IMG/VR virus record: IMGVR_UViG_3300044499_000058 | Coordinates: 1-30,931 of that record | Reading direction: 5' to 3' (one strand) | Length of the DNA: 30,931 nucleotides | Source: a virus | Notes under the pieces: generated by a model | The model's input: the letters and a program-made list of their open reading frames with translations, nothing else | What the model was told of the DNA's origin: nothing | Databases searched by the model: none | Shown: piece by piece, positions 2,837 to 25,367 of the stretch | Position numbering within the stretch: position 1 is the stretch's first letter | How the letters are laid out: the number at the start of each line of letters is the position of its first letter | Made by a program: the position numbers and the translations under genes

Positions 2837-4104
2837 AGGTCCCCAGGAGCGCGCCCACCCTGAAGGACGTGCGGAGCTATTTGGCCTCGCGGCGTCCGCC
2901 TGTGTCTGATGCGGTCATTGCCCGGCGGGCGACGGAGATTCTCCGGCGCTGGGGGATTGCCCGGAACGGCGTGACCGTGTCCCGGCCGCTCGTCTGCATG
3001 CTCCGAGGGGGCCACGCGGGGCGGCGGCACTATCACCCGAAAAGCCACGCGATCTGGGAGGCCATGGTCGCGCTCGGAGTGATTCCGGCCCTCCCCAGGG
3101 AAGTCCTCGCCGAACGCGACGCGGTCCTCGCCCGCAAAGGAGCGTCCCCGTGGACGCAATGGTACTGGCGCAAGAAAGCCGAGGCGCTCCAGGCGAAGCT
3201 GGGCCGCGGCGCCGATCAGGAGGTGAAAGAAGTCCCCATGCTCACCGCACCGATGCTCCGGTATTTCGGGTTCACCCGGAACCCGGTCTTCGACGAGATC
3301 AAACATCCCCGGGACGTCTGGTGGGGCAGCCAGCACAAGGAGGCCAAGGCCGTCCTCATCGAGGCGGCCGAGCAGGCGCGCTTTATCCGGTTGGCGGGGC
3401 GGCGCGGCGCCGGGAAATCGCTCGTGGCGGCCGCTGTGGAGCAGGAGCTCAAGCAGCGCGACGACATCACCCTGGTCCAGCCGAGCGCCGTCATCACCCA
3501 CGGGCTCAGCGAGCTGGACCTGGTGAGCGCGGTGATCCAGGCGATCAAGCGCAAGACGGACGCCAAGGACGAAGTATTCCCCGAAGCCCAGAACCGCGTC
3601 AAGCGGGCGCTCGCGATGCGATATCTGTTGATCCAGCAACGCCGCCAGAACCGCCAGGTGGTCGTCTGGATCGATGAGGCCCACGAGCTCCGGGCGGCGA
3701 CGTATCTCTCGCTCAAGCGCTTCCTGGACGAAGTGGACGGCCTGGGCCGGCGGCTCCTGGGGATCGTCCTGATCGGCCAGGACCCCGAGGCGGCCTATAA
3801 TCCGCGGACGCGGGACCTGAGCGAGGTCACGCTGCGCCTGCAGACGTATCGGCTGCAGCCCATGAACCAGGAAATCCCCGACTACCTTCGCCACAAGATC
3901 CAGCGCGCCGAAGGCAGCATCGGGGACGTCATCACCCCCGCGGCGCTCAAGGCGATCGGCACCCGCTGCGCGTTTCCGCTGGACGCCAATGTCCTCTTCG
4001 CCCAGCTCCTGATCGAGGCCTATGACAACAAGAAGAAGCCGATCGGCCGCGAGCACGTCGAGGAGGCCATGCCGGCGGAGGAGACGGAGGAGGTGGCGGG
4101 GTGA
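2833..4104 (+). CDS. AAA+ ATPase, MuB/ExeA-like transposition activator
   Basis: This is the ATP-dependent DNA-binding partner of the transposase, expected to choose target DNA, stimulate strand transfer and give target immunity. The product has 423 residues. Residues 1-135 form a basic extension with helix-turn-helix character. The AAA+ domain begins near residue 141 with YFGFTRNPVF, as in ExeA-like ATPases. Walker A is GRRGAGKS (189-196) and Walker B is VVVWIDEAHEL with D281 and E282. MuB is about 312 residues, so the N-terminal extension is unusually long. The start overlaps the transposase stop by 4 nt. A strong internal ribosome site before an in-frame ATG at 3238 could give a shorter ATPase-only form. 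Confidence 0.88.
   Translation: MKVPRSAPTLKDVRSYLASRRPPVSDAVIARRATEILRRWGIARNGVTVSRPLVCMLRGGHAGRRHYHPKSHAIWEAMVALGVIPALPREVLAERDAVLARKGASPWTQWYWRKKAEALQAKLGRGADQEVKEVPMLTAPMLRYFGFTRNPVFDEIKHPRDVWWGSQHKEAKAVLIEAAEQARFIRLAGRRGAGKSLVAAAVEQELKQRDDITLVQPSAVITHGLSELDLVSAVIQAIKRKTDAKDEVFPEAQNRVKRALAMRYLLIQQRRQNRQVVVWIDEAHELRAATYLSLKRFLDEVDGLGRRLLGIVLIGQDPEAAYNPRTRDLSEVTLRLQTYRLQPMNQEIPDYLRHKIQRAEGSIGDVITPAALKAIGTRCAFPLDANVLFAQLLIEAYDNKKKPIGREHVEEAMPAEETEEVAG
3218..3226 (+). promoter_or_regulatory. Strong Shine-Dalgarno inside the MuB-like gene
   Basis: AGGAGGTGA lies 11 nt before an in-frame ATG at 3238. That ATG is the first residue of the conserved ATPase part (MLTAPMLRYFGF). It could initiate a 288-residue form lacking the N-terminal HTH-like extension. 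The spacing is somewhat long, and GGAGGTGAA also encodes ordinary residues, so chance is possible. Confidence 0.4.
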
Positions 4105-8594: not shown

Positions 8595-9041
8595 ATGAAA
8601 CAGGCCCAGCGCTTCGTCGATGAGCTGCTGCGCCACGTCGGCGAGCGCTATTCCTACGGCGCCGAGGTAACCCTCCAAGACCCGAACGCCAAGGGGCCGT
8701 GGGACTGCTCGGAGCTGATCGAGTACGCGGCCCGCCAGATCGGTCTCTCGATGCCGGATGGCTCCTCCAACCAGGCCCGCCAGGGGATCGTCTGCACGCT
8801 GACGGAGGCGCGGGGTCTGGCGGGCGCGCTCGTCTTTCGGTCCTCACCGCGCTGGCACGTGGGCGTGTCGCTCGGCGACGGGCGCGTGGTGGAGGCGCGG
8901 GATTCGATCGCGGGCGTGGTGATCAGCGAGTTCGACACGGGTCGGGTGCTCGAGCCGCCCGGGCGCGATCGCCCGACGCAGTCGCCGTTCTGGCAGTTCG
9001 CTCGGCGGCGGCCGGAGCTGGAGACGGAGGCCGTGGCGTGA
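8595..9041 (+). CDS. NlpC/P60-family cell-wall hydrolase (probable endolysin)
   Basis: This is a cysteine peptidase of the NlpC/P60 fold, which cleaves peptide stems of peptidoglycan. The 148-residue protein has the catalytic Cys at 38 (GPWDCSELIEYAA) and His at 88 (RWHVGVSLGDGRVVEA), with a polar residue about 12 positions later (E100 region). It has no signal peptide, so export would need the holin. It lies immediately before membrane and lipoprotein genes, as expected for a lysis cassette. In other phages such proteins can be tail-tip hydrolases, but position here is far from the tail genes. Confidence 0.82.
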   Translation: MKQAQRFVDELLRHVGERYSYGAEVTLQDPNAKGPWDCSELIEYAARQIGLSMPDGSSNQARQGIVCTLTEARGLAGALVFRSSPRWHVGVSLGDGRVVEARDSIAGVVISEFDTGRVLEPPGRDRPTQSPFWQFARRRPELETEAVA

Positions 9042-9283
9042 AGGTCCCGGGGTTGGGGGCGTTCGGTCGGGTTCTCGTCCTGGCCCTGCTCATCGCGGCC
9101 GCCTTTGCGCTGGATCGGTGGAGCCTGCGGCCAGACGTCATCGTCGTGCCGCCGCCCTCCGCGCCCGTGGTCCAGGCGCCGCCGCCGGCATCGCCGCCGG
9201 TCAGGACGCGAGCGCGGCTGGCGGACGTCCATCGGGACTGGGGGATCGAGGGCCGGCTCGTCTGTGAATCGAGGATCCCGTGA
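9038..9283 (+). CDS. Small membrane protein with Pro-rich tail (spanin-like)
   Basis: The GTG start overlaps the hydrolase stop (GTGA). Residues 10-26 form a membrane helix (RVLVLALLIAAAFAL). It is followed by a Pro/Val/Ala-rich region (VVPPPSAPVV and PPPASPPV) and a short polar end. One N-terminal helix with a periplasmic tail fits an inner-membrane spanin subunit. The coupled next gene encodes a lipoprotein, the usual partner. Sequence homology cannot be claimed. Confidence 0.6.
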   Translation: MKVPGLGAFGRVLVLALLIAAAFALDRWSLRPDVIVVPPPSAPVVQAPPPASPPVRTRARLADVHRDWGIEGRLVCESRIP

Positions 9284-9585
9284 GGCGCGCCCTGGCCGGG
9301 CTCTTCGTCATCGCCCTGGCGCTGCCCCTCGGGGGATGCGTCGAGATCGTCTTCGGGATCGGCGGGCTCCTCTCCAGCGGCATCAGCATCTACCAGCGGT
9401 GGGAAGATCGGGGGGCGCAGACAGATCAGACCGAGGAAATCCGGAAGCTCCGACAAGAGATCCGTCGCCTGCTGGACACGGTCCTCTTGGAATCGGATCC
9501 CGACCGGAAGGCGGCGCTCGAAGAGGAGCTGGCGGATCGGGCCGTCGATCTCGCCCGAACCGTCGCGGGGCCGGGGCCGCTATGA
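9280..9585 (+). CDS. Lipoprotein with coiled coil (spanin-like outer subunit)
   Basis: The N-terminus is a lipoprotein signal: an Arg-Arg start, hydrophobic LFVIALALPLGGC with the lipobox Cys near residue 20. After a Gly-rich segment there is a long charged coiled coil (about 47-95, with EEIRKLRQEIRRLLD and ALEEELADRAVDLA). Lysis genes commonly pair an inner-membrane spanin with a lipoprotein; here 9038 and 9280 would be that pair. GTGA couples it to the previous gene. It is larger than many outer spanins (about 60-100 aa). Confidence 0.6.
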   Translation: MRRALAGLFVIALALPLGGCVEIVFGIGGLLSSGISIYQRWEDRGAQTDQTEEIRKLRQEIRRLLDTVLLESDPDRKAALEEELADRAVDLARTVAGPGPL

Positions 9586-9680
9586 CGCGGGCGGTGTTCT
9601 GCGCGGGCGCGGGCGTTCTGGTCGAGGCCGGGCTGGCGCGGCCCTACGATGGCCGGGCCCGCCAGAGCTGGTGCGGCTGA
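9582..9680 (+). CDS. Tiny ORF, 32 aa, coupled on both sides
   Basis: ATG 9582 overlaps the lipoprotein stop (ATGA) and its stop 9678-9680 overlaps the next ATG (TGATG). The product (MTRAVFCAGAGVLVEAGLAR and a short tail) has a mildly hydrophobic centre and two Cys. It may simply keep ribosomes moving between genes. Its reality rests only on the junctions. Confidence 0.4.
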   Translation: MTRAVFCAGAGVLVEAGLARPYDGRARQSWCG

Positions 9681-10024
9681 TGGAGCGCACGCGGGCGCTC
9701 GCCAAGGAGCTCCTGCCATGGGGCGCCCTCGCGGCGTTCACGGGCGCAGCGGTCTGGGGCGACGTGGGCCCGGAGATGCGCGAGCTGCTCCTCAAGTGGG
9801 GCCCCGGGCTCTTGATCTTTCTCGTGATCGCACAATCGGTGCCCCCGTTCGTCCGGGCGGCGCAAAAGCAGGCCGACGCGATGGCGATGCTGGCGCGGGA
9901 GCTCCACGAAGTGCCTCGGCGGGATGAATTCAAGTTCCAGGACCTCCTGATCGGTCAGGAGCTGATCCTGCGGGAGCTGGCCGAGCTGAAGAAGCGGGTG
10001 CCCGATGGCGGACGCGCGAGCTGA
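9680..10024 (+). CDS. Two-helix membrane protein, holin-like
   Basis: The 114-residue product has two hydrophobic segments: about residues 13-31 (LPWGALAAFTGAAVWG) and 43-60 (WGPGLLIFLVIAQSVPPF). A charged, coiled-coil C-terminus follows (LILRELAELKKRVP). Two helices and a polar tail beside a cell-wall hydrolase fit a class II holin. Mu-like phages also carry a DUF2730 membrane protein just before the gene type found next here, so that identity is the main alternative. I chose ATG 9680 (TGATG); GTG 9671 is in frame. Confidence 0.6.
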   Translation: MERTRALAKELLPWGALAAFTGAAVWGDVGPEMRELLLKWGPGLLIFLVIAQSVPPFVRAAQKQADAMAMLARELHEVPRRDEFKFQDLLIGQELILRELAELKKRVPDGGRAS

Positions 10025-14895: not shown

Positions 14896-15144
14896 ATGAT
14901 GGCGAGCAATGGGTGGCGGAAGGGACTCACGGATGTCGCGATCGCGATGGTCGAGGCCGCGTGCAAGGCCTACAAGCTCGATCCGGACAAGGAGATCATG
15001 GCCGTCGGCGTCAAGAAGGATGACGTCACGATCGTCACGAACGGCGCCCACAAGGTCCGCTGGAAGAAAGGCGCCGACGTGAAGCCGCTCAGCGACTTTC
15101 ACGCCGGCCGGCCGCCGAAGAAGGCCGAGGTGGAGGCGCCCTGA
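14896..15144 (+). CDS. Hypothetical head-region protein, 82 aa
   Basis: GAAAGGAG lies 5 nt before ATG 14896 (a second ATG is at 14899). The product is Lys-rich, with an N-terminal helix (LTDVAIAMVEAACKAYKLD) and a beta segment (DVTIVTNGAHKVRWKKG). The stop overlaps the capsid fusion start (TGATG). Small genes at this point sometimes encode head accessory proteins, but there is no signature here. Confidence 0.7.
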   Translation: MMASNGWRKGLTDVAIAMVEAACKAYKLDPDKEIMAVGVKKDDVTIVTNGAHKVRWKKGADVKPLSDFHAGRPPKKAEVEAP

Positions 15145-17492
15145 TGCACTCCTTCGAGCAGCTCCACGAGAAACTCCGGGCCGCGCTCCAGGCCCGCTAC
15201 CCGGCGGGGGACCAAGCCGCCGGGCCCTATATCGAGGCGACCTTTCTGGATGCCGTCGTCTTCAACATCGGGCCGGAGCGCTACCGGATCCACTACACCG
15301 TCGCGGCCGACGGCGAGGTGACGCTCGGCGACCGGGAGAAGGTCGAGACCCTCTATGCCACGGTGGGCGAATCCGTGGCGTTCGAGCGCTCGCGGGACAA
15401 AACCGGGGCCGTGTGGGATGTGCGGGTCCTGAAGCTCGGGCTCAGCCAGAACGGGTGGCTCTGGACACGGGAGAGCGCGGAAGCGCTCCTGCCGCATATC
15501 ACCGGGGCACCGATCGGGGTGTACGCCTACCAGACCGGGGCCCAGCTCCACGCGGATGGGGAGGCGCTCGTCCAGGCCGGCGGCCCCGTCGTCCGGAACA
15601 TCGTGGGCGACCTCCAGGCGCCGCGGCTGGAGGCCGACGGGCTCTATGCCGAAGCTCATATCCACGAGGACGCCGGCTGGCTCCGGCGGAAACTCCTGGG
15701 CCTCGAGGCCCGAGGGGTGCTCCAGAAGGTCCTGGGGCTCTCGGTCGATACCCTGACGGGCTACGTGCCGGTCCGGGTCCGGGAAGGGATGGCCCGCTGG
15801 ATCCGTGAGATCAAGCGGCTGCTGTCTGTGGACATCGTCACGGCGCCTGCGGCAGATGGGCGCTTCATTCGGGCGACGGCCGGGCCGTTGCTCACCACTG
15901 GAGAGAGGGAGGATCACCCGATGACAAGGCAGGAGCTGATCGCGCTAATCAAGGAGCACCGGCCGCAGCTGCTCGAGGGCCGGACGATGGAGACGCTCAC
16001 GGACGAGGATCTCAAGGGCCTGGTCCGTGAGGCGCTCAAGCCGCCGGCCGAGGCCGCGGGCGAGCCCGAGTGGGCGAAGCGCCTCAAGCAGGACCTGGCG
16101 GTGCGGGACACCCAGGCGCGCGTGACCGAGGCACTCGATGCGACCCAGCTGCCCGCGCCGGTGAAGGAGAAGATCGCCAAGCGTTTTGCCGGGCGCGCCG
16201 CCGAGGCGGCCGAGATCCAGTCGGTCGTCCAGGAAGAGGTCGAGACGCTGGCGAAGCTCTCGCCCACGGGGGACGTCCGGGGGTTCGGCCAGGGTCGGAT
16301 CGAGATCCTGGCGGCCCCGCTCGACAAGGTGCAGGCGGCGATGGACCGCCTCTTCGACGTGAGCCCCGAGCGGTTCACACGGGCGCTCGAGTCCGCGCCG
16401 TTCAACGAGCGCACCCTGACGAGGGTCCGGGAGAGCCTGGCGCCGAACGTGGAGGCCCACAAGGATCGCGGGCTCGATTTCCAGGGCTCGCTCCGGCGGG
16501 CCTACGCGGAGATCACAGGCGACCCGGAGATCACGGGGCGCATCCAGCGGGTCTCGGAGACGATCACGAGCGCCACGTGGGGGGACATCCTGGGCAACAC
16601 CCTCTACCGGCGGCTGCTCCAGGATTATGCCCAGCCGCGCTACAACGAAGGCTCGATCGCCGAGTTCGGCCGGGCCGCGGACTTCCGCACCAAGGAAGCC
16701 ATCGTCCAGCACTACTTCGGCGATCTCGCCGACGTGGATCCCGAGCTCGCCGACTACGTGGAGATCGCGGCGCCGGGCGACGACAAGGTCTCCTACGCCG
16801 TCGGCCAGAAGGGCAACATCCTGACGATCACCCGGAAAACGATCATCAACGACGATCTGGGCGCGGTGTCGCGCCTGGTCGGCCGGCTGGGCCGCGCCGC
16901 CCGGCGGACGCTGGCCCGGTTCATCTGGAGTTTCTGGCGCACCAACGCCGTCTATGACGTGGATGCGCTGGCGTGGTTCCACGCCACGCACGCCAACACC
17001 GGCGCCACGGCGCTCACGGCGGATCTGACGGGCGCCACTGAGGTGCTCGCCAAGATCATCCAGCTCGCGGACATGACGGAGGAGGGCTCGGCGGAAAAGC
17101 TCGGGCTGCCGCCGATCGAGAGCCTCTGGCTGGACGTCCCGCACGCGCTGTACGGCGTGGCGATGCAGATCAACAACTCCATGGAGTTCGGCGCGGGCAA
17201 CGTGAACCCGGTCTTCAAGCACTTCGGCCAGGCGGGCGAGCGCATCAATGTGAACCCGCTCTTCACCGACGTGACGGACTGGGGGCTCCACGTGAGCCCC
17301 GGCGCCGGCGGGCGGCCGAGCGTCGGCGTGGACTTCCTCCAGGGCCGAGAGGAGCCGGAGTTCTTCCTGGCCGAGCAGCCGACGGTAGGCCAGGCGTTCC
17401 TGGGCGACAAGATCCAGTACAAGATCCGCCACGAGTACGGCGGGGACATCCTCGGCGTCAAGGGCGCGACCAAGAACGTCGTGGCCGGCTAA
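15144..17492 (+). CDS. Fused prohead protease-scaffold-major capsid protein
   Basis: One 782-residue ORF carries three phage functions that are often separate. Residues 1-255 look like a prohead protease, with KVLGLSVDTLTGYVPV (candidate nucleophile S200) and SVDIVTAPAADGRF (about 228-241). Residues 260-430 are charged and helical, as in a scaffold or delta domain. Residues about 430-782 resemble an HK97-fold capsid protein of the Mu gpT type, with YNEGSIAEFGRAADFRTKEA, WFHATHANTGATALTADL and a C-terminal IQYKIRHEYGG. In Mu the protease and scaffold are nested by an internal start; here an internal ATG at 15921 (residue 260) has a strong ribosome site. Self-cleavage would then release mature capsid protein. 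Confidence 0.8.
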   Translation: MHSFEQLHEKLRAALQARYPAGDQAAGPYIEATFLDAVVFNIGPERYRIHYTVAADGEVTLGDREKVETLYATVGESVAFERSRDKTGAVWDVRVLKLGLSQNGWLWTRESAEALLPHITGAPIGVYAYQTGAQLHADGEALVQAGGPVVRNIVGDLQAPRLEADGLYAEAHIHEDAGWLRRKLLGLEARGVLQKVLGLSVDTLTGYVPVRVREGMARWIREIKRLLSVDIVTAPAADGRFIRATAGPLLTTGEREDHPMTRQELIALIKEHRPQLLEGRTMETLTDEDLKGLVREALKPPAEAAGEPEWAKRLKQDLAVRDTQARVTEALDATQLPAPVKEKIAKRFAGRAAEAAEIQSVVQEEVETLAKLSPTGDVRGFGQGRIEILAAPLDKVQAAMDRLFDVSPERFTRALESAPFNERTLTRVRESLAPNVEAHKDRGLDFQGSLRRAYAEITGDPEITGRIQRVSETITSATWGDILGNTLYRRLLQDYAQPRYNEGSIAEFGRAADFRTKEAIVQHYFGDLADVDPELADYVEIAAPGDDKVSYAVGQKGNILTITRKTIINDDLGAVSRLVGRLGRAARRTLARFIWSFWRTNAVYDVDALAWFHATHANTGATALTADLTGATEVLAKIIQLADMTEEGSAEKLGLPPIESLWLDVPHALYGVAMQINNSMEFGAGNVNPVFKHFGQAGERINVNPLFTDVTDWGLHVSPGAGGRPSVGVDFLQGREEPEFFLAEQPTVGQAFLGDKIQYKIRHEYGGDILGVKGATKNVVAG
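15905..15912 (+). promoter_or_regulatory. Internal ribosome site before the scaffold-capsid part
   Basis: GAGGGAGG lies 8 nt before an in-frame ATG at 15921, exactly between the protease and scaffold regions. It could start a 523-residue scaffold-capsid protein in excess over the full-length fusion. This would supply the many capsid and few protease copies that a head needs, as Mu does with its nested protease and scaffold genes. Confidence 0.6.
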
Positions 17493-17511
17493 CCCGGCCC
17501 GTGAGCGAGCG

Positions 17512-17538
17512 GGCGGGGGTCCATGACGGGCCCCCGCC
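17512..17538 (+). other. 11-bp GC-rich hairpin after the capsid gene
   Basis: GGCGGGGGTCC (17512-17522) pairs with GGGCCCCCGCC (17528-17538) through ten Watson-Crick pairs and one wobble, with a 5-nt loop. It starts 20 nt after the capsid stop. No T-tract follows, so it is not a classical intrinsic terminator. It may stabilise the capsid message 3' end or reduce read-through. An in-frame ATG (17523) for the next gene sits in the loop. Confidence 0.6.
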
Positions 17539-17567
17539 TCGGATCGCGGAAAAAGGAGACGAGCGCA

Positions 17568-18032
17568 ATGATCGCACGTACGAAGCGACCCCTGATCCTC
17601 ATGCTCCTGGCGGCGTGCCTCGCCGTGTGGGCGCTGTCGCTCGAGGCGGCCGCGCCGGCCCTGCCGGCGAAGGGCTCGGACCTCCAGGTGATGACCTTCC
17701 ACCTCTCGGGGCAGTACACCGCCTCGAAGACCGGGATCGTCAAGTTCAACGCCCCCTTCGACCTGCGGATCCTCTACGTCGAAGTCGCGATCCAGGCCAA
17801 GGGCGGCACGCAGGGCACGTCCACCGTGCAGGTCTTGAATGCCGGGACCGGCGTGACGAACGCGATGGACATCGGGACGCCGGCCGCCGGCACGGTGGTG
17901 GAGGCGACGCTGACCGCGGCCCAGCAGAGCGTGGCCAAGGACGCGGCGATCACCGTGGACCTGGTGATCACGGGCGGCACCTCGCCGACCATCGACAACA
18001 TCACGGTCGTCATCGTAACGGGCCGGCGGTGA
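17568..18032 (+). CDS. Exported beta-rich protein after the capsid gene, 154 aa
   Basis: AAAAAGGAG lies 8 nt before ATG 17568. Residues 1-30 look like a signal peptide: basic ARTKRP, hydrophobic LILMLLAACLAVWAL, then Ala-rich. The rest is Thr/Val/Gly-rich with alternating strands (FDLRILYVEVAIQAKGG, TSTVQVLNAGTGVTNAMD), as in small beta-sandwich proteins. Its slot directly after the capsid gene is where decoration proteins lie, but a signal peptide would be odd for one. It could instead be an exported phage-encoded host-surface protein. It is coupled to the next gene (GTGA). Confidence 0.7.
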   Translation: MIARTKRPLILMLLAACLAVWALSLEAAAPALPAKGSDLQVMTFHLSGQYTASKTGIVKFNAPFDLRILYVEVAIQAKGGTQGTSTVQVLNAGTGVTNAMDIGTPAAGTVVEATLTAAQQSVAKDAAITVDLVITGGTSPTIDNITVVIVTGRR

Positions 18033-18571
18033 ACCGGCCGGCGCGTCTTCTCGTCATCGCGCTGGTCACGCTGGGGCTCGCCTGGCCGGCCGCAAGTCCT
18101 GCCCAGCGCGACCGCTTGGGCGTGGGTGAAGACTTCAAAGCGAAGGTCATCCGCCCCGACACGAGCGAGTACGAGATCACCGTCAAGCAGGAGCCCGGGG
18201 AGCGGCCGAAAACGATCCAGGGCGAGCTCCGCGCCCAGAAGCTGCCGCGCCAGGTCCAGGCCGCGCTCGCCTTTCTGATCCGCTGGGGCGGCGGACCGAG
18301 CACGCCGCCGAAGGTGCCTCGCCTCGCGCTCGATCCGGCGACGCCCGTGGAGGTCGCCGGCCGGCTCTATGCCCTTCGGGACGTGACGATGCTGCCGCCC
18401 GTCGTGGGGCTGTCTATCCTTCGTGATCCCGCGGGGACCGCGACCGGGGTGGCGGTGCGTTCGATCGCCGTCCGCACCCGGGATGGGGAGCTCCGCGGGC
18501 GGGGCGTGCTGCACACCGAAACGGAACCGGACGGCTGGGTCTCTGTCCGGCGCGTGACGATCACACCATAG
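18029..18571 (+). CDS. Exported protein of unknown function, 180 aa
   Basis: The GTG start overlaps the previous stop. A signal peptide is clear: MNRPARLLVIALVTLGLAW then PAASPAQR, with probable cleavage near Ala-Gln. The mature part is a charged, beta-rich domain (EYEITVKQEPGERPK, VEVAGRLYALRDVTML, VSVRRVTITP). No catalytic motif or transmembrane helix is seen. It is the second consecutive secreted product, which argues for an exported function shared with 17568. Confidence 0.7.
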   Translation: MNRPARLLVIALVTLGLAWPAASPAQRDRLGVGEDFKAKVIRPDTSEYEITVKQEPGERPKTIQGELRAQKLPRQVQAALAFLIRWGGGPSTPPKVPRLALDPATPVEVAGRLYALRDVTMLPPVVGLSILRDPAGTATGVAVRSIAVRTRDGELRGRGVLHTETEPDGWVSVRRVTITP

Positions 18572-18583
18572 GAGGAAGAGCCG

Positions 18584-18772
18584 ATGGGTCTGTGTCGCAT
18601 CGTGATCGAGGGGTTCACCTATTTGGAGATGGCGGTGCAGGCCGCCGAGAAGGCGCGCGCCGCGATCGCGGCTGACGTCTCGATCTCGAAAGTTGACGTC
18701 ATCGCGCACCCGGGCGAAGCGGACGAACAAACGGTAAAGGTCTACCGCGCTCTCGGCTACGAGAACGCCTAG
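18584..18772 (+). CDS. Hypothetical small protein, 62 aa
   Basis: A strong AGGAGG site lies 9 nt before ATG 18584. The product has a helix (MAVQAAEKARAAIAAD) and beta strands (SKVDVIAHPG, QTVKVYRALGY), suggesting a small alpha/beta fold. There is no signal peptide, unlike both neighbours. I recognise no family. The ribosome site and frame composition support a real gene. Confidence 0.65.
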   Translation: MGLCRIVIEGFTYLEMAVQAAEKARAAIAADVSISKVDVIAHPGEADEQTVKVYRALGYENA

Positions 18773-18801
18773 GCTCCAACGAGAAGAGGAGACCAGGGAC
18801 G

Positions 18802-19608
18802 ATGAAGCGATACGCCCGACTCAAGATGACGACGTGCCTCGCACTGCTGATCCTCGCGTCGGTCAGCGTCGGCTGGACGGCCAGCGGGATCTACCACCGG
18901 TACGTCCGCGAGTCCGCGAAGCTCTCCGGCTGGCTCACGGCGGTCCAGCTCCGTCCGATCGTGGAGGGCGGGTGCCAGCGGCCCGACCAGCTCGTGCAGG
19001 CGTGGGAGCGGTATTCCCTGGAGCAGCAGGCCAAGCGCACCCTCGCGGCCTGGCTCCGGCCGGGGCCCGCGCACGCCATGGCCGGGACCTGCCAGGTCCT
19101 CGCCGACCGACATGTCCGGAACCTGATCGTCAACGCCGGCGAAGCATTCCTGATCGACGCGTGGCAGAACCTCGTCGAGCTGGAGATCATGAAGTTCCAC
19201 GGCATTGGGACGGGTGCCGTCGCGGCGGCTGAGGGCGACACGGCCCTCGGGACCGAGCTGACGACCCAATATAACCCCGACAACACCCGCGCCACGGGCT
19301 CCCTGACGGAAGCCTCGGCCAGCGTCTTTCGCACCGTCGGCACGAACACGGTGGACGCGACCGCTGCCGTCACGGAGTGGGGTCTCCACAGCCAGGCGGC
19401 GACTGGTGGCGGGACGCTCTGGAGCCGCGTCGTGTTCTCCGTGATCAACTTGGCGTCGGCCGATTCCCTTCAAACGACGTATGACCTCACTGTTGAAGAC
19501 ATCTTCGCGCTGCGAGCACTCCTGCTGGTCTTCCTGATCGAGCTTTTCATCCCCTGGCGGGTCGGCCGAAGGTTGGTTCGGGCGCAGATCATGCCACCCG
19601 GGAGTTGA
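18802..19608 (+). CDS. Membrane-anchored or exported phage protein, 268 aa
   Basis: GAAGAGGAG precedes ATG 18802. Residues 9-28 are hydrophobic (MTTCLALLILASVSVGWTAS), either a signal peptide or anchor. The region 110-230 (NLVELEIMKFHGIGTGAVAA, then DTALGTELTTQY, TEWGLHSQAATGGGTLWSRV) is like a repeated phage structural pattern: "H-x-x-G-T-G", "D-T-x-L", "E-x-G-L" and "R-x-x-F". That part resembles virion or tail-fibre-associated domains in metagenomic phages. A second hydrophobic stretch (ALLLVFLIELFIPW) is near the C-terminus. It may be a fusion of an envelope anchor to a virion-type domain. Confidence 0.6.
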   Translation: MKRYARLKMTTCLALLILASVSVGWTASGIYHRYVRESAKLSGWLTAVQLRPIVEGGCQRPDQLVQAWERYSLEQQAKRTLAAWLRPGPAHAMAGTCQVLADRHVRNLIVNAGEAFLIDAWQNLVELEIMKFHGIGTGAVAAAEGDTALGTELTTQYNPDNTRATGSLTEASASVFRTVGTNTVDATAAVTEWGLHSQAATGGGTLWSRVVFSVINLASADSLQTTYDLTVEDIFALRALLLVFLIELFIPWRVGRRLVRAQIMPPGS

Positions 19609-19628
19609 GCGACCCTACGGCTTGAACG

Positions 19629-20180
19629 ATGACGAAGGTCGTCCCTCTGGAGACGGAAGTCGCGGCCCTGCTCCTCCTGGCAGCGACGTGGCTGCCGGAG
19701 AGAGCAGAACTTCGGCGGATCATCGAGCGGATCGGGCTGGGAGAGCTGACGCCGCGAGAGGGGTTGGTGCTCCTCGATCGCCACGGGGTTCCCCCCGCGC
19801 CGTCGGGCCTGTCCGGCGACGGCCCGGCCTCAGAGGCCGTGGCCCGGGTCGAGCGGGCACTGGCCGCGACGCTCCTGAAACGGTGCGTGGACTGTCTCCG
19901 GCCGATCACGCCGACAGCGACCCGCTGCAAACGCTGCGAGCTGCCGCATCGGCACCGGGGAGCCGACGGCCGGCTGATCCAGCGGAACGAGCCGATTGCC
20001 CCCAAGGCGGTCACCGGGACGCTCCCCTGCCGCCTGTGTGGAATTCACCCCGCCAAGACGAGAAGAGGACCCGGTCCGACCCCCATTTACTGTGAGGAGT
20101 GCCGGCCCTTCGGATACATGGGAGAGCTTCCCGCGAGTGACCCTCACAATCAACTGAGGCGCAGAGGAGGAACACGATGA
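19629..20180 (+). CDS. Zinc-ribbon protein of unknown function, 183 aa
   Basis: Two cysteine pairs are followed by two more: CVDCLRPITPTATRCKRC (about residues 86-103), then CRLCGIHPAKTRRG and YCEECRPFG. This is a pattern for two zinc sites. The N-terminal 80 residues are helical and acidic. It has no signal peptide despite lying among exported proteins. It parallels the 7607 protein in layout (helical N-part, paired Cys clusters, basic stretch), although the sequences are not closely alike. The stop overlaps the next start (ATGA). Confidence 0.65.
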   Translation: MTKVVPLETEVAALLLLAATWLPERAELRRIIERIGLGELTPREGLVLLDRHGVPPAPSGLSGDGPASEAVARVERALAATLLKRCVDCLRPITPTATRCKRCELPHRHRGADGRLIQRNEPIAPKAVTGTLPCRLCGIHPAKTRRGPGPTPIYCEECRPFGYMGELPASDPHNQLRRRGGTR

Positions 20181-20599
20181 AGAGGGTCGGAGTCATGGGG
20201 CTGATCGTGTTGCTGGTGCTGCTCATGCCCGGTTTGGGTCACGCGGGAGTCGGGAAACTGGACCTGTCCTGGAACGACAACGCGACCAACGAGGACGGGT
20301 TTGCGATCGAGTCCCACGTGGGACCGTGTAGTCCGGGGACGGCGTTCACGGAGCTCGCGCGCGTGGGGGTGAACGTCAAGGCGTTTACACATGCCCCGCT
20401 GGGTCCCGGAGAAACCGTCTGTTATCGCGTTCGCGCCTTCAATGCGGCCGGGATGTCCGCGCCCTCCAATGAGGCGGCCGGGACGACGCTCCCCACTCCG
20501 GGCGGGCCGACGAACCTCCTGATCGCGTTCCTCCGGGCGCTCGGCTTGACGGCGGTCGAGGATTGGCTCTTTCCGACCCCACGGGTGACGACGGGATGA
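20177..20599 (+). CDS. Secreted fibronectin type III domain protein, 140 aa
   Basis: GAGGAGGAA precedes ATG 20177, which overlaps the previous stop. The signal peptide is MKRVGVMGLIVLLVLLMPG followed by LGHAG. Residues 28-106 form one FN3 domain: LDLSWNDNATNEDGFAIE, then FTELARVGVNVKAF, then CYRVRAFNAAGMSAPSNEA. The C-terminal hydrophobic helix (NLLIAFLRALGLTAVEDWLF) is unusual for a free secreted FN3 protein and may anchor it. FN3 domains in phages are usually on virion proteins without signal peptides, so secretion points to a host-surface role. Confidence 0.75.
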   Translation: MKRVGVMGLIVLLVLLMPGLGHAGVGKLDLSWNDNATNEDGFAIESHVGPCSPGTAFTELARVGVNVKAFTHAPLGPGETVCYRVRAFNAAGMSAPSNEAAGTTLPTPGGPTNLLIAFLRALGLTAVEDWLFPTPRVTTG

Positions 20600-20970
20600 T
20601 CGCTCGGCTTCTCCTGATCGCAAGTCTCTGGCTTGCCGCGACGATTGCAGGGGCGCTGTTCTGGGTGAATCCATCCTCGCCCCAAACCCCTCCCCGCACG
20701 GAGACGTTTTCCTGGGCGATGTCCGAGGGGGCCACGGCCTACCGGCTCTATCGGTGCGCGTCAAACTGCTGGAACGTGAACCGGATTCCGACGGCCTGGA
20801 GGCGAGTGGCCGAATCGACGACCCCCGGCTTCACGGTGCCGATCCCGGACAGCCGGACCTGGTGGATGGCGGCGGCCGTGTATCGAGACCCGGACCGGGA
20901 GGTATTTCGCTGGAACGCGGTCTGGTACACGGTGCCGGGACCGAAGTTCGTAACGGTGCCGCCCCCGTGA
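20596..20970 (+). CDS. Second exported FN3-like protein, 124 aa
   Basis: ATG 20596 overlaps the previous stop. Residues 5-22 are hydrophobic (LLLIASLWLAATIAGALF), a signal anchor or uncleaved signal. The remaining 100 residues resemble a degenerate FN3 domain: TFSWAMSEGATAYRLYRC, a two-Cys loop (CASNC), TPGFTVPIPDS and WWMAAAVYRD. It is probably an exported paralogue or partner of the 20177 protein, since the genes are translationally coupled. The FN3 call is by pattern and less sure than the first. Confidence 0.65.
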   Translation: MIARLLLIASLWLAATIAGALFWVNPSSPQTPPRTETFSWAMSEGATAYRLYRCASNCWNVNRIPTAWRRVAESTTPGFTVPIPDSRTWWMAAAVYRDPDREVFRWNAVWYTVPGPKFVTVPPP

Positions 20971-21191
20971 CGGATGCCGAGCTCGGCGTCCTCGTGCGAC
21001 GGGCGGTGGAGCGGTCTCGGGGCGGTCGCTTGATTCTCCGTCGCGGCTCCTTCACCCGTCACGGGCGCGTCCTTCAAACCTGCAAGGCCACGGTGCGAGT
21101 CGGCAAGGCAAACGTGCAGGGGTCAAGCCCGGAGGGCATCGGTGAGGCAGTCCACCAAGCGTGTCTCAAGGCCGGGTGGGTCGATGACTGA
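20967..21191 (+). CDS. Hypothetical protein, 74 aa
   Basis: The GTG start overlaps the previous stop (GTGA). The product has a helical N-terminus (TDAELGVLVRRAVERSRGG), then strands (RLILRRGSFTRHG) and a C-terminal helix (GIGEAVHQACLKAGW). It is soluble, basic and without recognised family. The stop overlaps the next small gene by 8 nt. Confidence 0.6.
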   Translation: MTDAELGVLVRRAVERSRGGRLILRRGSFTRHGRVLQTCKATVRVGKANVQGSSPEGIGEAVHQACLKAGWVDD

Positions 21192-21279
21192 GCGGGTCCT
21201 CGTGACGAGCGGGTTGATTCTGCTGACTGGCGCGGTCTGGGCGTGGGCGCTCGGGAGACTCTGGTGTGGCGCTTCATAA
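21184..21279 (+). CDS. 31-aa membrane peptide
   Basis: ATG 21184 opens a 31-codon frame to TAA 21277-21279. The product MTERVLVTSGLILLTGAVWA and 11 more residues is one membrane helix (about 5-24). It overlaps the preceding gene by 8 nt and the next by 14 nt. The coupling and hydrophobicity support it, but its shortness leaves real doubt. It could be a small envelope peptide or a chance frame. Confidence 0.4.
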   Translation: MTERVLVTSGLILLTGAVWAWALGRLWCGAS

Positions 21280-21529
21280 TCTGCTCCGTCGCAACCGGGA
21301 CCAGTTCCTCGTGCTGGAGCATGACGGGACGGGGGCGATGACGATCGAATCCACCGGAGATCGTGCCGTCACCTTCACGATCGCGGGATCCTCGATCCGA
21401 GTAGGAGCACGGGAGAAGCTCAACGTGCGCGGTCGCCAGTTGGCGGTTCGTCGAGTGGTCAACGAGGATGGGACAGGGAGAGAGATTACGTCGTTCGATG
21501 TGGAGTGGAGTGCGGTGTGGAGTCCCTAG
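21266..21529 (+). CDS. Hypothetical beta-rich protein, 87 aa
   Basis: The GTG start at 21266 overlaps the 31-aa gene. The product is strand-rich (QFLVLEHDGTGAMTIE, RAVTFTIAGSSIRV, KLNVRGRQLAVRRVV, EITSFDVEWSAVW), like a small beta-sandwich or beta-barrel. Third positions are less GC-rich than in the structural genes (31 of the first 40 by my count). It abuts the fibre-like gene at 21530 with no gap, so the two may form one structural unit. Confidence 0.6.
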   Translation: MALHNLLRRNRDQFLVLEHDGTGAMTIESTGDRAVTFTIAGSSIRVGAREKLNVRGRQLAVRRVVNEDGTGREITSFDVEWSAVWSP

Positions 21530-22222
21530 ATGGCTTTTCCGCAAGTCGCGGCGACCAATTCCGGCGCGAGCACGGTGAACCAGACCGATCACGCGGTCAA
21601 TCTACCGAGCGGAATCGTATCCGGCGATCTCCTCATTGTCCTCTTCGGTGCCGACTCGAACGAGGAGGTCGGCTGGCCGGGCGGGTGGACCGAGCTCATC
21701 GACCTCAATGCCAATACGGAGTCTACGCTCTCTATCGGGTATCGGATCGCCGACGGGACCGAGGGCAGCACGATCACGGTCACGACGGGGACGTCGGAGG
21801 CGTCCGTGCATCAGTCCTACCGCATCACGGGGCACGCGGGGGCCGGGACGCCGCCGCAGGTCTCGGCCGGCGCCGGGGGGCTCAGCTCGAACGCAAACCC
21901 CGATGGACTGACTCCAACCGGGGGCGCCAAGGACTACCTCTGGATCGCATTCGCGGCGATCGACGGATCGGGGAACCAACCCACTGTGGCTCCTACAAAC
22001 TTTACTAATCTCTTCGCGCAGGAGTCGCCGGGGGGTTCGGGGCACGTGTGTATGGGTGCGGCTCGACTCGAACTGAATGCCGCATCGCAGGATCCAGGAA
22101 CGTTTACGTCGCCGTCTGATGACTGGAACGCCTGCACGCTGGCCGTGCATCCCGCGGCGGAGGTGACGGTGCTTCCGCCGCTCCTGCGGCGCCCTCAGAC
22201 GCTGTATCAGGAGGCAGCCTGA
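21530..22222 (+). CDS. Fibre- or adhesin-like beta-rich protein, 230 aa
   Basis: The product is Gly/Ser/Thr-rich with many predicted strands. It includes NLPSGIVSGDLLIVLFGAD, GGWTELIDLNANTEST and KDYLWIAFAAIDGSGN. The "lP-x-G-I-x-x-G-D-L-L" pattern recurs in surface-exposed phage proteins of the fibre or receptor-binding type. There is no signal peptide, so it is probably virion-associated. GC at third positions is lower here (28 of the first 40 codons) than in the capsid genes, consistent with exchange from another source. TGATG couples it to 22222. Confidence 0.6.
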   Translation: MAFPQVAATNSGASTVNQTDHAVNLPSGIVSGDLLIVLFGADSNEEVGWPGGWTELIDLNANTESTLSIGYRIADGTEGSTITVTTGTSEASVHQSYRITGHAGAGTPPQVSAGAGGLSSNANPDGLTPTGGAKDYLWIAFAAIDGSGNQPTVAPTNFTNLFAQESPGGSGHVCMGAARLELNAASQDPGTFTSPSDDWNACTLAVHPAAEVTVLPPLLRRPQTLYQEAA

Positions 22223-22692
22223 TGCCGACGGATGGCTATATCTACATCGTGAAGAACGGGGACGCTGGGGTCGTCATCTCGACGGCGATCACGCTTCTCC
22301 AAATTAAGGCCGGGGCCGCAGCCCTCGAAGTGATCCGGGCCGTACTAACCCAGGGGCTCTCGGAGACGAGCACCCAGGAACAGGTCCAGCTGCTCAGGAA
22401 AACGGCCGCGGCGACCGTCACGAGCTTCACGCCTCGGAAGACGAACCCGGGAAATCCCTCCTCCCTGGCTGTCGGAGGAACCGCGGCGACGGGCTACACG
22501 GGGTCGGCCGAAGGCACGGATGGGGAGGTTCTCATAGACGAGGGGTTCAACATTCTGAACGGGTGGCTCTGGACCCCGGTCCGGCCCGGGGAGATCTGGG
22601 TCCCACAAGGCGGGATTATCGCCATGAAGTTTCCGGTGGCGCCCGCGTCGGGGACGTGGCGGGCGACGCTGGTCGCGCGCGAGCTCCAGTAA
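22222..22692 (+). CDS. Probable structural protein, 156 aa
   Basis: ATG 22222 overlaps the previous stop (TGATG). The product has an alpha/beta start (GYIYIVKNGDAGVVISTAIT) and a strand-rich C-terminal half (GEVLIDEGFNILNGWLWTPV, GEIWVPQGGIIAMKFPVAPA) like a jelly-roll edge. Similar proteins are seen in uncharacterised phages near capsid or fibre genes, from memory. A surface or trimeric virion role with 21530 is likely. AGGAGG after its stop belongs to the next gene. Confidence 0.6.
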   Translation: MPTDGYIYIVKNGDAGVVISTAITLLQIKAGAAALEVIRAVLTQGLSETSTQEQVQLLRKTAAATVTSFTPRKTNPGNPSSLAVGGTAATGYTGSAEGTDGEVLIDEGFNILNGWLWTPVRPGEIWVPQGGIIAMKFPVAPASGTWRATLVARELQ

Positions 22693-22703
22693 AGGAGGAG
22701 CCC

Positions 22704-22961
22704 ATGAAGCCTGGACGCTTTAGTGATAACGAGGCGGTGACGTTGCTCGATGGACGCAAGGGGATGATCCTCAGGAGCTGTGGGCACTTCGCGATGGATC
22801 CCAACCACCCGAGGCGACCGGACGAGACCCGAGGGCCGCGCTACAAGGTGCTGCTGGATGGCCGCGGTCTCACACCCGCAATGCTGAGCATGACGCCGGC
22901 CGAGGAATCCGCGGAAGCGGCTGGTGCGGTGATCCTGGTGACGGACGAGGATATAGAGTAG
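22704..22961 (+). CDS. Hypothetical small protein, 85 aa
   Basis: AAAGGAGGAG precedes ATG 22704, one of the strongest ribosome sites in the window. The product has a beta-rich N-terminal half (AVTLLDGRKGMILRSCGHF, RYKVLLDGRG) compatible with an SH3-like barrel. An acidic end (DEDIE) follows. It has no signal peptide. Function is unknown. Confidence 0.65.
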   Translation: MKPGRFSDNEAVTLLDGRKGMILRSCGHFAMDPNHPRRPDETRGPRYKVLLDGRGLTPAMLSMTPAEESAEAAGAVILVTDEDIE

Positions 22962-22964
22962 GCG

Positions 22965-24350
22965 ATGCCGGGTTACTACCTCCAGTTGCGGTCGATGCCC
23001 GGGCTCCTCCTGCTGCGGCCGCCTCGCCGCCGTAGCTCAATGACCCTATTCGGCGGCGTCACGTTCGAGCAGGCCCTCGCCGACACGCTCGAGGCGACGG
23101 AGGCGCTCCTCCGCCGCGCCGACCGCACGATGGCCGAGGCCCCGAACCTCGTGGAGGCGCTGACGCCGCAGACGGGCAAGCTCCTCGTCGAGACGGTGGG
23201 GTTGACGAGCGTGCTGACGCGCCTGGTGCTTCGGACCATCGCCGAGGAGCTGATCCCCACGGAGGCGCTGACACGACAGCCCGGCAAGGCGATCGCCGAA
23301 GGCTTGGGGCTCGCGGAAGCTCTGATCTTTCGGGTCGATGCGAAGATCGAGGAGACGGTCAATCTGACAGATATGGTGCTGAACCGGATCGCCCGCACGA
23401 TCGCGGAGGCGGCCGATTTGCAGGAGTCGCTGGCGCCCGTCAGGCTGATCATCCTCCAGGTCGCGGACACGCTGGGCCTGACGGAGGCCCAGCGCCGGGA
23501 GACGCGCCGGACGGAGGCCGAGGCGGCGGCCTTCACAGAGCAGCTGGTGCGGGAGACGCGGCGCGTGCTCGCGGAGAGCCCGGAGCTCGCGGAGGCCCTC
23601 ACGGCGATCAAGACGGTCCTCGTCTCCCTGGGCGACGAAGTTCTGTTCACCGAGGCGCTCACGCGGAGCGTTGGCAAGGCGTCGAACCTCGCCGACGCGG
23701 TCAGCCTGGTGGAAACTCTCCCCCGGGAGACTCGGCGGGCGCTCGTGGAGGCCGCGTTGCTGGGGGAGACGCTGACGCTGGCCAGCGCGGTCAGACTCGC
23801 GGAAGATCTTCAGGCAACCGAAACGCTCCGCCGCATGGCGGCGCGGGCCCCCATCGCGGAGACCGTCCTCCTCGCGGAGGAGGTGGATCGCCTGACGGCG
23901 CGCCTCCTCGAGGAGACGGTCGAATTCACCGAGAGCCAGGTCCGCCAGGCGCGGCGCACGATCACCGAGAGCCTGGGGCTTGCCCAGGCGCTGATGACCG
24001 CGTTCGCCCGTCGGCTGGAGGATGTGGCCCTCCTGGACGAGGCGCGGCGGGCGCAGATCGGGCGCGCCGTCCAGGAGGGCCTGGGCCTGACGGAGACCAG
24101 GATTCTCACCGTGGCGCGCGCCTTTCCCGAGACCGTGGATCTGGCGGAAGCCCTCCAAGCGTTCGCGGTCACGAGCCTGGGGGATGTGATCGTCGCGACG
24201 ACGATCTCGCTGATGCCCCGACGGGCCGTGGCGTCGCTCATCCCGGCGCGAGCGGCGGCGAGTCTCGTGGCGCGCCGGGCGATGTTCTCGCTGGTTCCGG
24301 CGCGGGAGACGGCGACCCTCATGCCCCGACGGACCACGGAGAAGCTGTGA
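22965..24350 (+). CDS. Large 18-residue-repeat protein, 461 aa
   Basis: Residues about 40-410 consist of roughly 20 imperfect repeats, usually 18 residues long. Each has the pattern Thr-Glu-x-Leu-x-Arg ... Arg-x-Ile-x-Glu ... Leu, for example TEALTRQPGKAIAEGLGL and TEQLVRETRRVLAESPEL. Residues about 416-461 switch to five 9-residue units (SLMPRRAVA, SLIPARAAA, SLVARRAMF, SLVPARETA, TLMPRRTTE). Such regular periodicity suggests a fibrous or solenoid structural protein, possibly a virion fibre or a length-determining rod. There is no signal peptide. I chose ATG 22965; ATG 22995 and ATG 23040 are alternatives. Confidence 0.75.
   Translation: MPGYYLQLRSMPGLLLLRPPRRRSSMTLFGGVTFEQALADTLEATEALLRRADRTMAEAPNLVEALTPQTGKLLVETVGLTSVLTRLVLRTIAEELIPTEALTRQPGKAIAEGLGLAEALIFRVDAKIEETVNLTDMVLNRIARTIAEAADLQESLAPVRLIILQVADTLGLTEAQRRETRRTEAEAAAFTEQLVRETRRVLAESPELAEALTAIKTVLVSLGDEVLFTEALTRSVGKASNLADAVSLVETLPRETRRALVEAALLGETLTLASAVRLAEDLQATETLRRMAARAPIAETVLLAEEVDRLTARLLEETVEFTESQVRQARRTITESLGLAQALMTAFARRLEDVALLDEARRAQIGRAVQEGLGLTETRILTVARAFPETVDLAEALQAFAVTSLGDVIVATTISLMPRRAVASLIPARAAASLVARRAMFSLVPARETATLMPRRTTEKL
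23070..24195 (+). repeat. Coding tandem repeats of about 54 bp
   Basis: This is the DNA underlying the ~18-residue repeats of the preceding gene. Copies differ by many substitutions and some units are 19-20 residues, so the array is old or selected for diversity, unlike the near-perfect 12-bp array at 180-527. Boundaries are approximate. Confidence 0.7.
24217..24348 (+). repeat. Five 27-bp coding repeats at the 3' end of the repeat gene
   Basis: Five 9-residue units with Ser/Thr-Leu-x-Pro/Ala-x-Arg cores follow the 18-residue array. At DNA level they share a CTCATCCCGGCGCGAG-like core with substitutions. The change of period marks a separate C-terminal domain. Boundaries are approximate. Confidence 0.6.
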
Positions 24351-24668
24351 ATGGACGCGCCGCTCCCGCTTGTCGAGGGGTGGACCGGTCCGATCGACAT
24401 GCAGCTCACGATGGATGGCGTGGCCGGGAACATGACCGGGACGACGGTGGCGCTGGTGCTCCGGGACAATGCGGGCGCCCTCGTGACGCTGGGGGGCGTG
24501 TCGAGCTGGGTGGACGCCGTTCTGGCCAAGGCGCGCTACGCGCCCGTAGCGGCCGATCTTCTTATGTCGAAGAGCCCCTACACCGCCCGCTGGAAGGTCA
24601 CCGACGCGACCTCGAAGGACGTCTTCTTCCCCAACGCCGACTCGGACGTCTGGATCGTGCGGAAATGA
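24351..24668 (+). CDS. Hypothetical structural protein, 105 aa (BppU-N-like?)
   Basis: ATG 24351 directly follows the repeat-gene stop. The product is a small beta-sandwich-like protein: PIDMQLTMDGVAGNMTGTTV, ALVLRDNAGALVTL, then YTARWKVTDATSKDVFFPN and WIVRK. This arrangement resembles the N-terminal domain of baseplate upper proteins (BppU, DUF2479-like), though the match is by memory. It lies just before the head-tail connector gene, so a fibre-attachment or adaptor role is possible. Confidence 0.55.
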   Translation: MDAPLPLVEGWTGPIDMQLTMDGVAGNMTGTTVALVLRDNAGALVTLGGVSSWVDAVLAKARYAPVAADLLMSKSPYTARWKVTDATSKDVFFPNADSDVWIVRK

Positions 24669-24674
24669 GGCGCC

Positions 24675-25367
24675 ATGGCCCTCGCTGATTGGCTCACGCT
24701 GTTCGATCAGGAGCTCAAGGACACGGCCAACCTCCTCGCCCCGGCCGAGAAGCTCAAGGCCGTCACCGAGGCCATCAAGGAGTACTCGAAGCACCGCCCC
24801 CGCGAGCGCGTGCACGAGATCACGGGCACGGGGTCGGCCTTTGAATTCGCGGTGCCGACGGATTGGGAAGACGGCTTCTCCACGCTCCGCGGAGAGGTCG
24901 AGTATCCGGCCGGAAAGCGGGAGCCGGAATTCATCGAGCGCGAGGACTGGCTGGTGTACCGGGATCCCACGCAGGGGCTTCGGTTCCGACTGATCCGTCA
25001 CACCCCGACCGCGAGCGAAAAAGTGCGCTTCCTCTACACGGTGCGCCACGCGGTGGATGCGACCCAGGACACGGTGGCCGTCTTCGACCGGGAGTCGGCC
25101 GCGAAGCTGGCCGCGAGCTTCGGCGCTCGCGCCCTGGCGGCGTACTACGCGCAGACCCAGGACCCGACGCTCGCCGCCGACGCGGTGAACTACCGCACGA
25201 AGGCCCAGGACTACACGATGCTCGCCGACCGGCTCCTCAAAGCGTTCAAGGAGCACCTGGGGCTGAAGGATCAGGACCAGGTACCGGCGGCGGGCGCGTC
25301 GATTGACCTGGACGTGGACCTCCAGCCGGGCGGGGACCGCTTCTATCACCCGCGGCGGTGGCGCTGA
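24675..25367 (+). CDS. Head-tail connector (adaptor)-like protein
   Basis: The 230-residue protein begins with a helix (LADWLTLFDQELKDTANLL), then FEFAVPTDWEDGFSTLRGEV and YLVYRDP-type strands, and ends in helices rich in Ala (FGARALAAYYAQTQDPTLAA). This layout and its location before the gp10-like gene fit an adaptor that attaches to the portal. Family assignment is uncertain because connectors diverge strongly. TGATG couples it to the next gene. Confidence 0.55.
   Translation: MALADWLTLFDQELKDTANLLAPAEKLKAVTEAIKEYSKHRPRERVHEITGTGSAFEFAVPTDWEDGFSTLRGEVEYPAGKREPEFIEREDWLVYRDPTQGLRFRLIRHTPTASEKVRFLYTVRHAVDATQDTVAVFDRESAAKLAASFGARALAAYYAQTQDPTLAADAVNYRTKAQDYTMLADRLLKAFKEHLGLKDQDQVPAAGASIDLDVDLQPGGDRFYHPRRWR

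Follow-up and report, generated by a model that had tools for sequence, protein, structure and literature searches.

Predicted export signals come and go on virion-type proteins beside the capsid gene of a Mu-like phage

We analysed a viral contig of 30,931 nucleotides, IMG/VR virus record IMGVR_UViG_3300044499_000058 (positions 1 to 30,931, GC 69%; hereafter the window), and in particular the block of small genes, b1 to b15, that lies between its capsid gene and its head-tail connector gene. Five of these genes (b1, b2, b4, b6 and b7) are predicted to encode exported or membrane-anchored proteins. Our main finding is that, judged from sequence, these export signals are evolutionarily switchable, being present on some and absent from other homologues of the same virion-type proteins. 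Tailed-phage virion proteins are expected to be made without signal peptides, which does not hold where virion-type proteins of one kind acquire and lose them repeatedly.

Results

The relatives compared here (L numbers) were loci with a homologous capsid, taken from viral and genome collections, and loci with a homologous b4, taken from viral contigs; most are metagenome contigs, and the gene calls and the signal rule came from our own scripts. Gain and loss can be followed in slot 1, the position directly after the gene for the major capsid protein (MCP), which b1 (17568-18032, plus strand, like the whole block and its two boundary genes) occupies in the window. A signal was seen in 18 of the 43 non-redundant loci that have a slot-1 gene, and the signal-bearing proteins belong to three families. 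Homologues of b1 carry one in the window, L004, L007, L011, L012, L015, L037 and L083 and lack it in L005, L006, L008-L010, L045, L053 and others. The second family, of 265 amino acids (phrog_4368; L038, L084 and L085), had been suspected by eye of being DUF2190, for which there was no Pfam support, and the third is found in L042, L043 (phrog_5707), L051, L052, L057, L064 and L079. Signals in three different slot-1 families fit a gene whose product is needed in capsid stoichiometry. Beyond slot 1, the signal of b2 is present in the window, L007 and L084 and absent in L082, L083 and L085, with the motif R-[DE]-x-x-x-x-x-E-x-[FL]-x-A shared by homologues of both kinds, and the N-terminus of b4 is a membrane anchor in the window, L007 and L082-L085 but soluble in L087-L094.

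The signal-less b1 homologues start at the expected mature start of the signal-bearing ones (MAAPNFPALG versus AAAPALPAKG, and in a second pair METTNPSPASPGY versus ATSNPSPASPGY). On a capsid tree of 47 loci built by a quick method, the slot-1 signal state changed at least six times, four of these changes being forced by well-supported branches. Divergence of the mature b1 domain relative to the MCP averaged -6.3 points in pairs of a signal-bearing and a signal-less protein and -7.0 in pairs that both bear signals (8 mixed and 15 signal pairs, which are non-independent). The rate of divergence relative to the capsid is thus unchanged by signal state, which suggests that the mature b1 domain keeps one job through gain and loss of the signal. 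We also considered that the host might dictate signal state; this is countered by two prophage copies in one metagenome-assembled genome (MAG), L011 with and L106/L100 without a signal, although a binning error is possible there.

The signals were called by a strict, home-made rule, which asks for a positive n-region and an 11-residue core with neither charged nor polar residues; cleavage sites of small residues were noted but not required. All five genes that the preliminary description of this DNA had named as exported (starting at 17568, 18029, 18802, 20177 and 20596) pass it. Five positives among the 15 open reading frames (ORFs) of the block compare with a base rate of 110 in 1673 genes (6.6%) in the collected loci (binomial P 0.002), and none was seen among 357 core genes (terminase, portal, MuF, MCP, connector, gp10, tail terminator and tube). 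The N-termini are of the n/h/c type throughout, with a positive n-region, a hydrophobic core and small-residue cleavage sites. Signal-bearing slot-1 genes start at good ribosome sites and have no comparable start at the mature boundary, and the idea of two starts, one for a cytosolic and one for an exported product, was accordingly rejected.

When L083 is compared with L085, amino-acid-changing codon differences outnumber silent ones in the signal or anchor region of three of five genes, with the reverse or near parity in the mature parts; a fourth has equal numbers in the signal and a conserved mature part, and the fibronectin III (FN3) gene is changing throughout. Several signal regions have diverged fast yet are still hydrophobic, so that they look real, that is, maintained as signals, and purifying selection acts on most of the mature parts. 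Even numbers of Cys residues were counted in 25 of 30 Cys-containing exported proteins and in 40 of 96 signal-less accessory proteins; this parity was rejected as proof of export, being significant only before reduction to families, and is kept as a hint. Odd counts are missing from distinct signal-bearing b1 proteins and common in signal-less ones, by a crude cut on which the L004 count depends. With N-termini of the expected type in frame from a good start, as scored by the home-made rule, b1, b2, b4, b6 and b7 are very probably exported or membrane-anchored through Sec.

The block itself has two parts of different history. It is bounded on the left by a fusion of protease and MCP (15144-17492; PHROG head maturation protease and major head families, E to 5e-29; phrog_29592, 8e-79) and on the right by the connector (24675-25367), whose homologue directly follows the MCP or b1 in most relatives. 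The spacing of 7.2 kb is indeed unusual, as had been noted, most relatives having 0.1-1 kb; the count of about 14 intervening genes becomes 15 same-strand ORFs, one of only 31 codons, between the capsid end at 17492 and the connector start at 24675. In the closest relatives, L004 (capsid identity 65%) and L005 (56%), the order is capsid, b1 homologue and connector, directly or after one small gene. Since relatives run in this order with a short gap, b1 is a fixed slot in the ordinary gene plan, and 18029-24668 is an insertion relative to them. The block as one insertion was therefore rejected: the suspicion of an inserted block is borne out from 18029 onwards, whereas the first gene, at 17568, belongs to the conserved structural set, which the remaining genes do not.

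The inserted genes are very likely a mobile cassette. The genes b4 and b14, and often a b6-type FN3 gene, occur in the same order in other phages, at the connector-gp10 junction (L007, L084), between tail terminator and tube (L085) or after the terminator (L083), and also where the phage cores are unrelated (L082, L086-L094). Compared with that of the window, the b4 domain shows 82% identity in L007 and 90% in L084, between phages whose portals, capsids and connectors are 33-45% identical, so at least this domain has moved horizontally. GC dips to 66% in mid-block. The phrog_5417 appendage cassettes of environmental phages L086-L094 are built alike: after a b4-type domain come variable genes and a repeat protein, and some end in a small gene, but their b4 homologues have soluble N-termini and not membrane anchors. 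In Pseudomonas Mu-like phages, too, accessory regions bring accessory genes, including a putative decoration gene, into a Mu-like genome; in contrast to the block, these are mostly short ORFs, and the paper mentions no signal peptides (PMC4378225).

No isolated phage with an exported slot-1 protein was found by tblastn with b1, b4 and two other slot-1 families among 50,697 phage records, and the only isolate matched along the whole capsid protein, Microcystis phage Mae-JY22, is without a slot-1 gene. A wider host survey drew 297 genomes twice, and both times b1 came only from the starting genome; the two draws appear to overlap and are perhaps the same genomes.

Discussion

The preliminary description had reasoned that virion proteins do not need signal peptides and that the exported proteins might consequently act on the surface of the lysogen. 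That argument does not hold as stated, since related phages have homologues of b1 and b2 without signals at matching late-gene positions, and the signals therefore sit on virion-type proteins; the conserved b1 slot likewise disfavours reading the whole block as acting on the host surface. What stands of the earlier interpretation is that the block minus b1 is inserted and that the signals look real. A role at the host surface may still be considered: in L011, a prophage relative, the interval encodes a Wzy_C-family O-antigen enzyme.

The role of b1 bears most directly on what export might be for. An AF2 model of its mature domain (pLDDT 86) is an eight-stranded beta sandwich, which matches jelly-rolls of many kinds, including the Pam1 capsid chain 7eel_H (TM 0.57/0.53, Z 8.9 over 118 residues), although many unrelated jelly-rolls tie with it, so that the fold by itself is no proof; no PDB chain was matched by sequence. 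The gene adjoins the MCP gene and is conserved there in relatives, as a cement-protein gene would be, and from position and modelled fold we consider that b1 is probably a capsid decoration protein. On the capsid surface of Pam1, GP4 and BPP-1 sit cement proteins of Ig-like or jelly-roll fold (PMC9698820, PMC3863775). Bbp16 of BPP-1, gp1 of GP4 and the Pam1 protein resemble b1, as modelled, in being small beta-sandwiches, a likeness extended by the 7eel_H match and by the place of b1 and its signal-less relatives directly after the MCP; unlike b1, they are made without a signal peptide. We found no reports of signal-bearing decoration proteins in the open-access literature.

We tentatively favour an explanation in which virion-surface-type proteins (b1, b2, b4, b6 and b7) would be staged in the cell envelope, through Sec, late in infection and before lysis. 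Soluble b1, b6 and b7 would be processed in the periplasm and would meet the particles at cell lysis, where b1 would then bind the capsid as a decoration protein; indeed, if decoration is the job of mature b1, the exported form must meet capsids at lysis. By this scheme b4 would stay in the membrane, its fibre-type domain facing the periplasm, and b10-b15, which lack signals, would serve as normal appendage proteins of the virion. That attachment takes place at or after lysis is possible, at rather less than an even chance. The broader proposal, that a tailed-phage lineage finishes its virion surface with Sec-routed proteins attaching at or after lysis, the signal being a switch gained and lost on decoration and fibre proteins, is doubtful.

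Several points weigh against envelope staging. We know of no earlier case in which a tailed phage receives a decoration protein from the periplasm. An anchored b4 cannot simply join particles, and there is the O-antigen enzyme encoded in this interval of the prophage relative L011. The Z-scores of b1 are equalled by unrelated proteins, jelly-rolls are common, and the decoration role comes from position and fold. With one member per family, Cys parity is not significant (p 0.25-0.37).

The nearest competitor is envelope receptor masking or superinfection exclusion, in which exported fibre-type domains would occupy or jam a receptor on the periplasmic or outer face and so protect the infected cell, and keep progeny from adsorbing to debris. 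It would account well for an anchored b4 with its domain predicted outside the cytoplasm, for the similarity of the exported domains to adsorption-type domains and for the enzyme in L011. T5 Llp jams FhuA from the periplasm (PMC9586334), and exclusion lipoproteins sit inside the structural clusters of mEpimmI phages (PMC11893012). T5 Llp, Cor and mEpimmI Lpp are, like the block proteins, exported phage proteins encoded among virion genes, but they are small lipoproteins with a lipobox and without virion homologues, whereas the block has non-lipoprotein signals on virion-type domains in several genes in a row. The lipobox [LVI][ASTVI][GAS]C is absent at the signal end of b2, b4, b6 and b7, and b1 has a chance-like LAAC within its hydrophobic core that is not conserved in L004, L007, L083, L037 or L015. 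Nine block proteins gave no match to PADLOC models, on which ground a known anti-phage defence system was also rejected. Masking would further leave unexplained the signal-less b1 and b2 homologues at matching positions and the signals in three slot-1 families beside the MCP. It is a possible reading that we would not lean towards, and envelope staging comes out narrowly ahead of it.

Lysogenic conversion, in which proteins displayed on the lysogen would benefit the host, in adhesion or biofilm for instance, suits the temperate Mu-like module of the window, and lambda Lom, which lysogens express, is an exported protein of the late region (PMC12309495). Lom shares with the block proteins a late-region gene and a signal but is an outer-membrane beta-barrel, which no block protein is predicted to be. 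The genes are tight in a late operon, and slot 1 is conserved beside the MCP, so we regard conversion as improbable. No promoter-like site or terminator above chance was seen in 17300-24800, a weak test in DNA of 69% GC. A GC-rich inverted repeat without a T run (GGCGGGGG/CCCCCGCC) lies at 17513-17539 between the capsid gene and b1 and is possibly an mRNA-end or processing signal.

Least probable, by a little, is that nothing is exported and the hydrophobic N-termini are virion parts, such as membrane-active segments in DNA ejection or oligomer stalks: export is predicted here by a sequence rule, but the n-region, core and cleavage-site pattern runs throughout, homologues do their work without such a segment, none of the core virion genes carries one, and the Cys counts of b1 differ with signal state.

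Absence of signal peptides has served in one survey as support for phage origin (PMC6199706). The phages described here suggest that a signal peptide is no ground for excluding virion-type genes in metagenomes, and they offer a natural comparison, with and without the signal, of what export buys a phage, be it envelope staging, receptor masking or display on the lysogen.

Other genes of the block and the window

The insertion starts with b2 (18029-18571), a signal peptide followed by the motif RDRxGxGExFxAxVI, whose N-terminus has homologues in five loci, each upstream of b4; the gene is translationally coupled, with no clear ribosome site of its own. Next come b3 (18584-18772), a 62-amino-acid protein with a strong ribosome site and a weak phrog_18949 match, and b4 (18802-19608), in which a phrog_5417 fibre-type domain (8e-14) is flanked by N- and C-terminal membrane segments; its structure model (pLDDT 56) was too poor for a fold search. 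A zinc-ribbon-like protein with CxxC pairs and weak DZR/zf-UBR matches only, b5 (19629-20180), precedes b6 (20177-20599), which has a signal peptide, one FN3-like domain and a Cys pair and matches phrog_31, central tail fibre J, at 6e-6 over residues 23-104. The signal is present in all five called b6 homologues, and the only match in an FN3 scan was the query gene itself. A signal or anchor that passes the strict rule and a short beta-type domain with CxxxC make up b7 (20596-20970). The labels fibre-like, zinc-binding and repetitive given earlier to the genes at 18802 and 20177, 19629 and 22965, respectively, are fair.

The small basic protein b8 (20973-21191), an ORF only, has an uncertain start codon, and b9 (21184-21279) is a possible 31-codon peptide with a single membrane segment that may not be a gene. 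Signals are absent from the ORFs b10 (21266-21529, 87 amino acids) and b11 (21530-22222, 230 amino acids, beta-rich, no family match), from b12 (22222-22692, 156 amino acids), which has homologues downstream of b4 in L086 and L088, and from b13 (22704-22961, 85 amino acids), which has a strong ribosome site. Repeats of 18/36 residues, seen as a repeat lag, characterise b14 (22965-24350), also without a signal and with homologues near the cassette end in 13 other loci. The last cassette gene, b15 (24351-24668, 105 amino acids), has a homologue in the same place in L089 by profile, and a similar-sized gene follows b14 in L007, L082 and L085.

The contig encodes MuA (phrog_310, 1.7e-39) and MuB (phrog_296, 5.8e-12) homologues, terminase, portal, a MuF-type protein and the 782-amino-acid protease-capsid fusion, and to the right of the block connector, tail-completion, terminator, tube and tape-measure genes, several of the tail names being given by gene order. 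Carrying both MuA and MuB homologues, it is classed from its gene content as a Mu-like transposable phage. The MuA/MuB module (1103-4104) was not found in 32 relatives by capsid or b4, whose records are often fragments and were searched without a positive control; this suggests that replication and structural modules may be exchanged between phages. Upstream of the MuA gene, a long ORF at 111-1082 has many repeats of the SAA(W/R/E/G)SAA type. An NlpC/P60 protein, a membrane-anchored protein, a lipoprotein-like ORF (LGGC) and a transmembrane (TM) protein at 8595-10024 likely form the lysis region.

In L012, a prophage of a Deltaproteobacteria MAG, a diversity-generating retroelement with an Mtd-domain protein and a reverse transcriptase (L012:13444-16273) lies between the b1 homologue and the connector, so the capsid-connector interval also hosts diversified binding proteins. 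The enzyme of L011 (L011:12845-14119) is a nine-TM, Wzy_C-family O-antigen ligase/polymerase-like protein whose gene is flanked directly by the signal-bearing b1 and the connector. In the cassettes of L083 and L085, b4 is followed by four to six exported genes in a row, of unknown family, giving more successive signal peptides than the window has. The second capsid relative in the Syntrophobacterales MAG, L106:415-18001, resembles a contractile-tail phage in having sheath- and baseplate-like genes by size and order; in L011 there is a long tape-measure-type gene without a contractile-tail set, the two thus combining a similar head module with different tails.

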